Shown piece after piece: positions 13,545 to 16,159 of a DNA stretch of 64,000 nt. Source of the DNA: Terriglobia bacterium (GTDB lineage: Bacteria > Acidobacteriota > Terriglobia > UBA7540); assembly GCA_020073545.1 (NCBI GenBank), contig JAIQEZ010000003.1:29579-93578 (forward strand), given 5' to 3'. Each line of letters starts with the position of its first letter. Position 1 is the stretch's first letter. The notes below the pieces were generated by a model. It worked only from the letters and a program-made list of their open reading frames with translations, made no database searches and had not been told where the DNA came from. A program made the translations under genes and the position numbers.

Positions 13545-14258
13545 TTACACGGATTTCACCGGCATCTTCACAATATCGTCAACCGCTGCAGTTTCGCGGG
13601 TTACGAAGGGCTCGCCGTAGCGCACGCCGATCATGTGCCCGAAATGGCGAGCTTCCGACCCCATGCGCGCGTGGATGTCGGCTCGGGAAGGGAAGAGGTT
13701 TTGCATCTCCTTGGGCGGGGAAAATTGTGAGGCAAAACAGAAGATGGCTTTGAGTTTCCTGTCGAACTGCTCGGTAATATCCACGACGAAGGTAGGCCGA
13801 ACCGTGGGCACGTACTGCGAGGCGTAGATGATTTTAAAGGGGCGGTGCGGCTTGCCCTTGAGCGGCAGCTTAGCGAGGCCCGCCAGGAAGCAGGCTTCGT
13901 ACCCGATCCGCCCGGTCGTGTAGTGGTCCGGATGGCGGCCTTGCCAGTACGGCAGGATCACCGTGCGCGGGCGCAGATTGCGAATCTTCTGGGCAATCTT
14001 CAACTTATTCGCGCGCGTATTCTCCACGCCTGCATCGGGAATATGGAGATTCTCCCTGTAGACGACCCCCAGCGTCTGCGCGGCGCGGCGCGCTTCCTTC
14101 TTGCGCAGAGCCGCACTGCCGCGCGTGCCCGTTTCACCCGCGGTGAGGTCCAGAATGCCCACGCGGTACCCTGCTTCCACCATCTTGATAACGGTGCCCC
14201 CGCAGGTGATTTCGACGTCGTCCGGGTGCGCGGCGATCGCCAGAATATCAACTTCCAT
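13545..14258 (-). CDS. bshB1: Bacillithiol biosynthesis deacetylase BshB1
   Basis: A 237-residue zinc-dependent LmbE/PIG-L deacetylase. It matches the BshB1 subfamily, which removes the acetyl group from N-acetylglucosaminyl-malate on the way to bacillithiol, the low-molecular-weight thiol used by Acidobacteria and Firmicutes. The metal-binding AAHPDDVEITCGG motif is at the N-terminus; the TAGETGTRGS loop, the PDAGVENT segment and the YWQGRHPDHYTTGRI motif are characteristic of the subfamily. Its ATG overlaps the stop of an upstream glutaredoxin-like gene, so the two were translationally coupled. bshA and bshC are not in this window. Confidence 0.93.
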   Translation of the reverse strand: MEVDILAIAAHPDDVEITCGGTVIKMVEAGYRVGILDLTAGETGTRGSAALRKKEARRAAQTLGVVYRENLHIPDAGVENTRANKLKIAQKIRNLRPRTVILPYWQGRHPDHYTTGRIGYEACFLAGLAKLPLKGKPHRPFKIIYASQYVPTVRPTFVVDITEQFDRKLKAIFCFASQFSPPKEMQNLFPSRADIHARMGSEARHFGHMIGVRYGEPFVTRETAAVDDIVKMPVKSV

Positions 14259-14552
14259 TTTCCGGTCTGTCTCCTTGTTCCCGCAGCGGCTTCAGCCGCC
14301 GGAGGAATTCTCGCTCGTCGAGGTGGTATTTGAACGCCTTACGGCCGTTGATAAAAACCACGGGTATCTCTTCTTTAAACTTCGCGTACGCGTCGCCGTC
14401 TTCCAGGATGTTGATGAAAAACATGGTAGCGCCGACCTTTAGGTCGGCAGGTGCTGAGCTAAAGCTCAGCGCTACAACACACCATCAACCTGGTATTTCA
14501 CCCGGTCGCACAGGCCACAGCCGGGTTTAGTATAGAGCACAACCTCAATCAT
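14248..14552 (-). pseudogene. Glutaredoxin-like (DUF836-type) gene broken by a 50-bp palindromic insertion
   Basis: Too broken for the ORF track. From the ATG at 14552 the minus strand encodes MIEVVLYTKPGCGLCDRVKYQVDGVL and then hits TAG inside an inserted palindrome. Beyond the insertion the frame continues as FFINILEDGDAYAKFKEEI and PVVFINGRKAFKYHLDERE, ending at a TGA that overlaps the bshB1 start. Removing exactly 14426-14475 joins the two parts in frame. The CGLC redox motif, the cis-proline segment EEIPVVFING and the C-terminal helix match small glutaredoxin-like proteins. The joined protein is slightly short between the halves, so some original sequence may be lost. In a bacillithiol operon it could have been a redox partner. 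A restart at the ATG just after the element cannot restore the CxxC. Confidence 0.8.
14426..14475. mobile_element. 50-bp double-hairpin palindromic element
   Basis: Outer ends GTAGCGC and GCGCTAC are inverted. Inside are two perfect hairpins, GCCGACC-TTTA-GGTCGGC and GCTGAGC-TAAA-GCTCAGC. This architecture resembles REP/BIME-type non-autonomous elements. Its insertion into the glutaredoxin-like reading frame shows it has been mobile. Confidence 0.75.
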
Positions 14553-14810
14553 CAGGGCAATTCTGGATTCTAAGGGGAAGGGTGGAGAAGCGTCAACCCC
14601 GATCCCGAATTCGGATAGCCTCCATTGTGACTATCCCTCTTTCCATCAGTAGGTCGGACTGTGGAAACCGAACCCCGATGCGATCAGATTCAAGGCACGG
14701 CAACGGCACAGCGACCGGCACGCGTCGCGGCGATGGAGTAGAATCACGTTGCGACGCATCGCCAACGCGTACAAGACGGACCGCCAAGATGTCAGTTCAA
14801 GGAGCCCCTT

Positions 14811-16159
14811 ATGCCCATCCGCACGATTATCGAACCTTTCAAAATCAAGAGCGTGGAGCCCATTCGCTGGACTACACGAGCAGAGCGCCAGGCGTTGCTG
14901 CGCTCCGCTCACTACAACCTGTTTTTGCTGTCGGCCGAGGATGTGCTGATTGATCTCCTGACGGATTCGGGGACCGGCGCCATGTCGACGCGCCAGAGGG
15001 CGGCCATGATGGAAGGCGATGAAAGCTACGCGGGGAGCAAGAGCTTCGACCGCTTCCGCTGCTCCGTGCAAGATATCTTCGCGTACAAGCACGTGATTCC
15101 AACACACCAGGGGCGGGCCGCGGAGCGCATCTTGTTCAGCGTGATGTGCAAGAAAGGTGACGTGGTCCCGAACAACACGCACTTCGACACCACGCGCGCG
15201 AACGTGGATTTTGTGGGTGCCGAGGCCGTGGACTTGCCGATTGCCGAAGGCAGCCGTCGGTCGTGCATCCGTTCAAGGGCAGCGTGCACGTGCCCGCGCT
15301 CGAGCAACTGATCGCGCGCGTCGGGCGCGAGCGGGTGCCGCTGGTGATGCTGACGATCACCAACAACTCCGGGGGCGGCCAACCCGTCTCGATCGAGAAC
15401 ATGCGGGCGGCGAGTGCGGTCTGCCGCAAGCACGGTATTCCGCTCTACTTTGACGCTTGCCGTTTTGCCGAGAACGCCTACTTCAGACTACGCGAGGAGG
15501 GGTACGAATCCAAAACGCCGAAGCAGATCGCGCAAGAAATCTTCCGCCTCGGCGACGGCTGCACGATGTCCGCCAAGAAAGACGGTTTGGCGAACATCGG
15601 CGGATTCCTCTGCACCAACGACGACGCGATTGCGCAACAGGAAAAGAACCTGCTGATTCTGACCGAGGGTTATCCGACTTATGGCGGGCTGGCCGGACGT
15701 GATCTGGAAGCGATTGCCGTGGGGGTGGAAGAAGTGCTGGAAGAGGATTACCTCTGCTACCGGATCGTTTCGACGGCGTATCTCGGGAAGCACATTTCCG
15801 ACGAGGGCGTGCCCATCGTGCAGCCGCCCGGCGGGCACGCCGTCTATCTCGACGCGCGTGCGTTCCTTCCGCACATTCCCGCAGAGCAGTTTCCGGGCGT
15901 GGCGCTGGCCGCGGAACTCTACCTGGAAGGCGGAATTCGCTCCGTCGAGATCGGCTCGCTCATGTTCGGCGCGGCAGCAAAGATGGACTTGGTGCGCTTG
16001 GCCATTCCGCGCCGCGTTTACACCCAGAGCCATATCGATTACGTTATCGAGGTGATCCTGAATGTCTGGAAGCGTCGGGAGCAGATTCGCGGGCTACGGT
16101 TAACTTACGAAGCTCCGTTCTTGCGGCATTTCACGGCTAGACTGGAACTTATGCCGTAG
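14811..16159 (+). pseudogene. Tryptophanase/tyrosine phenol-lyase with one-base frameshift
   Basis: PLP-dependent beta-eliminating lyase family, which splits tryptophan or tyrosine to indole or phenol plus pyruvate and ammonia. The first frame starts at ATG 14811 behind AAGGAG and carries [31 protein letters not shown] and [10 protein letters not shown]. The second frame, from about 15263, carries HPFKGSV, GGQPVSIENMRA, the PLP aspartate region FDACRFAENAY, the PLP lysine motif MSAKKDGLANIGG, and the C-terminal FLRHFTARLELMP. The frames would join if one C were added at AGCCGTCGG near 15253, where a CCC run is expected. So this is a recent pseudogene or a sequencing error. All catalytic landmarks are otherwise present, and the total length (about 450 residues) is normal. 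Tryptophan versus tyrosine preference is undecided. Confidence 0.88.

Follow-up and report, generated by a model that had tools for sequence, protein, structure and literature searches.

Families of GTAG-tagged repeats have been described, including their head-to-head dimers, the stop codons supplied by their tags and their occasional location inside genes (PMC3733652). In Anabaena variabilis, dimers of one such family, GTAG-15, are nested in longer palindromes (PMC3733652), and other short, non-coding elements, the bacterial MITEs, are represented by RUP, NEMIS and ERIC. The DUF836-like proteins that contain a CxLC motif, such as DR_0057 of Deinococcus, have been described as poorly understood (PMC8945050).

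Here we analyze a locus at which these themes converge, within a 64,000-nucleotide stretch of DNA (hereafter, the window) that belongs to a draft genome assembly, in 261 contigs, of a soil acidobacterium. The repeat found in this locus resembles the GTAG REP families (PMC3733652) in possessing a GTAG tag, a short stem, a 4-base loop, two different head-to-head partners and multiple copies; in contrast to those families, its stem was not matched to a listed family, and no transposase gene flanked by the window hairpins was found in its own genome. As in Anabaena variabilis, the GTAG dimer sits inside a longer palindromic frame, whereas the outer frame of the window element shows 4-bp CTRR duplications, and elements with related ends but different contents are found in the same genomes. 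The similarity to bacterial MITEs extends to the size (86-120 bp), the inverted ends of about 15 bp, the lack of coding capacity and the dispersal of near-identical copies; the differences are that the parental transposase was not found and that the window copy has no left target duplication. Finally, the product of the affected gene is, like DR_0057 and other DUF836/PF05768 proteins, a small thioredoxin-fold protein with a GCxLC motif (PMC8945050), but its gene, unlike that of DR_0057, heads an operon with bshB1 and is broken in the window genome.

The explanation that we consider very probable is that an 86-bp form of a 120-bp terminal-inverted-repeat element, non-autonomous and carrying a GTAG REP pair, inserted into the redoxin (grx) gene of a two-gene grx-bshB1 operon, with the loss of about 54 bp of coding sequence, such that the redoxin gene is dead and bshB1 is intact. 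The disruption is real and recent and was caused by an element of a known kind, and the insertion itself is routine; the most useful outcome of the analysis is the conserved overlap of the redoxin gene with bshB1.

A redoxin gene in two pieces

The DUF836 glutaredoxin-like gene (14248-14552, minus strand) is present in two pieces on either side of a double palindrome at 14426-14475. The 5′ fragment (14493..14552, minus strand) corresponds to native codons 1-20 (MIEVVLYTKPGCGLCDRVKY) and includes the CGLC motif, whereas the 3′ fragment (14248..14406, minus strand) corresponds to native codons 39-90 and the stop codon (LEDGDAY...ENGS). With the element in place, translation ends after 26 residues (MIEVVLYTKPGCGLCDRVKYQVDGVL) at the TAG of a hairpin GTAG tag, namely that of hairpin 2 (14474-14472). 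An open reading frame of 58 amino acids that starts at an ATG inside the element runs into the native 3′ frame and lacks the CxxC motif (14248..14424, minus strand). When the two flanks are joined after removal of the 50 bp of the palindrome, the product scores 47.6 bits against the PF05768 (Glrx-like/DUF836) profile, above the cut-off of 26, whereas the 3′ reading frame scores only 21.9 bits, and each of the window fragments, taken singly, falls below the cut-off. A profile search of the window's own genome detected no second PF05768 gene.

The downstream gene (13545..14258, minus strand), which the first-pass annotation had named bshB1, is intact and encodes a bacillithiol deacetylase of 237 amino acids. 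This assignment is confirmed: the protein scores 238.6 bits against TIGR04001, an equivalog profile with a cut-off of 182.5 bits, and also matches PF02585. The stop codon of the redoxin gene overlaps the start region of bshB1 by 11 nt.

Conservation of the redoxin-bshB1 overlap

Uninterrupted redoxin genes of 90 codons are located at the bshB1 start in four genomes of the same genus (G001, G002, G007 and G008), without the hairpins; the PF05768 scores of those of G001 (65.7 bits) and G002 (72.7 bits) exceed the cut-off of 26. As in the window, the intact form overlaps bshB1 by 11 nt in congeners. The overlap of the redoxin stop and the bshB1 start reads ATGGAAGTTGA in G001 and G002, and is the same or nearly the same in G007 and G008. 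In another congener, G006, the 3′ part of the redoxin gene lies at a contig end, and the contig stops inside the gene, short of the insertion site. The presence in close relatives of an intact CxxC gene that overlaps bshB1 bears out the earlier suggestion that the insertion postdates the formation of the operon.

Among the 30 bshB1 loci examined, an intact CxxC gene directly precedes bshB1 in 12, with G006 contributing a partial copy and the window genome a broken one. The pairing reaches beyond the genus, the carriers including two genomes of another family of the same class, and all 13 best matches to the redoxin gene in the named collection, each from an Acidobacteria/Terriglobia assembly, have bshB1 right after them. 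The association is not universal: G010, G013 and other genomes of the same family encode bshB1 without the redoxin.

A sigma-70-like promoter, TTGACG-18-TAGAAT (14567..14596, minus strand), precedes the redoxin start codon, which lies about 14 nt past the -10 element, and is kept across the congeners. Given this conserved placement, the redoxin gene and bshB1 probably share one nearly leaderless transcript. The conserved gene order is what suggests that the redoxin could be a thiol-redox partner of the bacillithiol pathway; our partial collection of papers contained none that links DUF836 to bshB1. A stronger version, under which the DUF836 redoxin would serve this acidobacterial group as a dedicated, bacillithiol-linked reductase, produced together with BshB1 from a near-leaderless transcript, with the window genome as a natural knockout, is put forward tentatively, and we consider it rather less probable than its negation. 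If it were true, the knockout genome could reveal what the loss of the redoxin costs. In any case, the conserved overlap offers a concrete, testable candidate function for a poorly characterized redoxin family.

The conserved context also bears on the possibility that the broken gene is an assembly artefact, that is, a chimeric join through the repeat. The assembly is a draft in 261 contigs and the element is a multi-copy repeat, both of which favor such an error. A repeat-mediated join, however, would link unrelated loci, whereas here the element separates two halves of a single gene that are correctly ordered and in frame, preceded by the expected promoter and followed by bshB1, on a contig 93.6 kb long. 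We therefore regard an artefact as highly improbable.

The GTAG hairpin pair

The 50-bp unit at 14426-14475 consists of two different, perfect GTAG-tagged hairpins placed head to head: hairpin 1 (GTAGCGCCGACCTTTAGGTCGGC; 14426..14448, plus strand), which is repeated in its own genome, and hairpin 2 (GTAGCGCTGAGCTTTAGCTCAGC; 14453..14475, minus strand), separated from it by the 4-bp spacer AGGT. Within the window, each of the two is present a single time, and 100 shuffles yielded no matches. In the complete genome, hairpin 1 has 30 matches within 3 mismatches, compared to none for the reversed control pattern, and head-to-head pairs with exact GTAG...CTAC ends are also found there.

A cognate Y1 transposase is a frequent, although not an obligatory, companion of GTAG REP dimers. 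The window's own genome contains nine Y1 transposase matches, none of which is flanked by the window hairpins; all nine genes have nearby hairpins with other stems, and a REP-associated Y1 transposase of this genome was accordingly rejected as the mover. Several Y1 transposase genes (L093-L097, on G000 contigs C110, C178, C1, C118 and C58) are accompanied, on one side or on both, by inverted hairpins whose stems are specific to the gene, the arrangement expected for REP-associated transposases.

As RNA, the element folds strongly (z = -5.9). An intrinsic terminator was considered and rejected: no run of T follows the hairpins, and a terminator scan predicted none at the element.

A longer, MITE-like element

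Alignment of sister copies shows that the hairpins are the core of a longer, MITE-like element, in an 86-bp short form, that occupies 14407..14492 (minus strand; CAGGTTGATGG...CATCAACATC) in the glutaredoxin-like gene. Copies that resemble the window over 85-95 bp are found in its own genome, G000 (C101, C102 and C250), and in G006 (C485, C672, C359, C771 and others). Full-length copies, with inverted ends of the form AGGTTGATGAAAAA, are present in both genomes and measure 120 bp (118 bp in C250), whereas the copy on C102, bounded by a perfect CTAG duplication, is an 86-bp form from which the 34 bp separating two internal CAGGTTGATG repeats are absent. Over its whole length, the window copy can be aligned with this short copy, differing at 5 of 86 positions. 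Both forms have the ends AGGTTGATGAAAAA / AGGTTGATG, which make up terminal inverted repeats of about 15 bp, and neither has coding capacity, while their lengths fall in the 70-300 bp range of MITEs; the ends can also be written SAGGTTGATGAAAAA and SAGGTTGCTGAAAAA, accompanied by CTRR duplications.

Perfect 4-bp duplications (CTAA, CTAG or CTGG) flank 7 of 18 related elements (p = 0.005 for flank agreement against permuted pairs), a set that also counts elements in which the end, AGGTTGCTGAAAAA, is related but the contents differ. Read from the sequence, inverted ends together with 4-bp duplications are the marks of a MITE, and such an element would probably be moved by a transposase acting in trans. 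Among the loci with related ends that were searched, no full transposon or transposase with matching ends was found. One candidate for the parental insertion sequence, in L167, was rejected: although one related end (AGGTTGCTGAAAAA) is located some 500 bp away from a broken transposase-like reading frame, no matching left end was found; this reading frame (L167:3355-3795; MGEKQNQPFQLSFNASLRIDFQGSRVTSDGGLILVRELDER...) might be a relic of such a parent.

Elements of 114-188 bp with AGGTTGCTGAAAAA or AGGTTGATGAAAAA ends and CTRR-like duplications were observed at L163-L178 (G000 C21, C50 and C67, and several in G006). Their contents differ and include the palindrome TGTCATTCTGAG, which is repeated, and a pair of GTAGCGGCGATTTTA hairpins. 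That a GTAG pair is carried here by an element with target duplications and with ends like those of a transposon offers one way in which such pairs could spread.

Of the copies in its own genome, that in the window is the only one seen to break a recognizable gene: no long frame crosses the empty site in C101 or C102, and C250 lies just before a gene start.

Coding sequence missing at the insertion site

The first-pass annotation had taken the element to be the 50-bp pair of hairpins, the removal of which would restore one open frame. The two perfect hairpins and the split they cause stand, but the element is 86 bp long, with sister copies that extend beyond the hairpins on both sides. Likewise, deletion of the 50 bp does produce a frame, of 84 codons, that ends inside the bshB1 start region with the 11-nt overlap; this frame is not the ancestral gene, however, as the relatives have 90 codons, 16-18 native codons are missing, and 36 bp of the 'restored' frame, among them those for the residues VDGVFMFF, derive from the element. 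The frame is preserved only by luck, both 36 and 54 being divisible by three.

The clean insertion of a bare 50-bp REP pair, the removal of which would return an ancestral 84-codon gene, thus draws on the restored frame and on the fact that bare 50-bp pairs with unrelated flanks are common in related genomes (G012, G003, G001, G005, G023 and G024). It is contradicted by the 17-19 bp on either side of the hairpins, which recur in sister copies located at unrelated sites, and by the four congeners with 90 codons, in which the positions taken up by element sequence in the window encode conserved residues. On the combined evidence of sister copies and congeners this explanation was rejected, and we assign very little probability to it.

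The native remnants in the window are codons 1-20 and 39-90, so that 54 bp (18 codons) are missing if the ends of the 86-bp element are taken as the boundaries. The loss may be only about 48 bp (16 codons) by a conservative count, because short stretches common to gene and element, CAG at the left junction and ATCAACATC (compared to CATCAACCTC) at the right, could belong to either. The element is followed on the right by CTGG (14403..14406, minus strand), a presumed copy of the target site by analogy with the CTAA, CTAG and CTGG of sister copies, and is preceded on the left by ATAC. With no matching target duplication, transposition into exactly this site is presumptive. The presence of CTGG on the right and its absence on the left form the pattern that a deletion extending leftwards from the element would leave. 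In the favored scenario, the element would have inserted near codons 39-40, at a CTGG target or immediately beside it, and about 54 bp of coding sequence on its left would have disappeared, either together with the insertion or afterwards; a template-switch replacement at the two short stretches common to gene and element would be indistinguishable from insertion plus deletion.

Age and consequences of the disruption

The 74 comparable codons of the remnants contain no stop and no frameshift, their amino acid identity to G001 (0.70) is close to that between the intact genes of G001 and G002 (0.69), and their nonsynonymous divergence is not raised (0.173 compared to 0.197). The lack of additional lesions and of accelerated protein change points to a break that is recent relative to the genus.

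On the basis of its fold family, the redoxin is expected to have lost its function, given that the half that contains CxxC and the half that contains IPVV, with its cis-proline, are no longer joined. The genome retains BshA (C259, 535.6 bits), BshC (C70, 431.9 bits) and a BrxA/B-type bacilliredoxin (C199, PF06491, 198.6 bits). Together with the intact BshB1, these proteins indicate that bacillithiol synthesis is preserved and that a further candidate disulfide reductase is still available, a possible reason for the tolerated loss of the redoxin.

As for bshB1, its expression probably continues, driven by the same promoter upstream of the redoxin gene, through a hairpin-bearing leader and with the aid of its own Shine-Dalgarno-like AGGAGA; an effect of the element on its expression is possible. 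One could go further and propose that the element was kept as a regulator, its hairpin leader and in-frame ATG tuning or preserving the coupled translation of bshB1. The 58-amino-acid frame that starts in the element and ends overlapping bshB1, the strong fold and the promoter upstream of the broken gene are all compatible with such a role. Nevertheless, the fold follows from the palindromes, an ATG has a one-in-three chance of being in frame, bshB1 has its own ribosome-binding-like site, and the arrangement was seen in one genome only, with no sign of selection; a regulatory role is thus very improbable.

Elsewhere in the window, a tryptophanase/tyrosine phenol-lyase-like gene (14811-16159, plus strand; PF01212, PRK13238) is split into two overlapping reading frames, 14811-15311 and 15263-16159, in different frames, a frameshift that reflects either a pseudogene or a sequence error.
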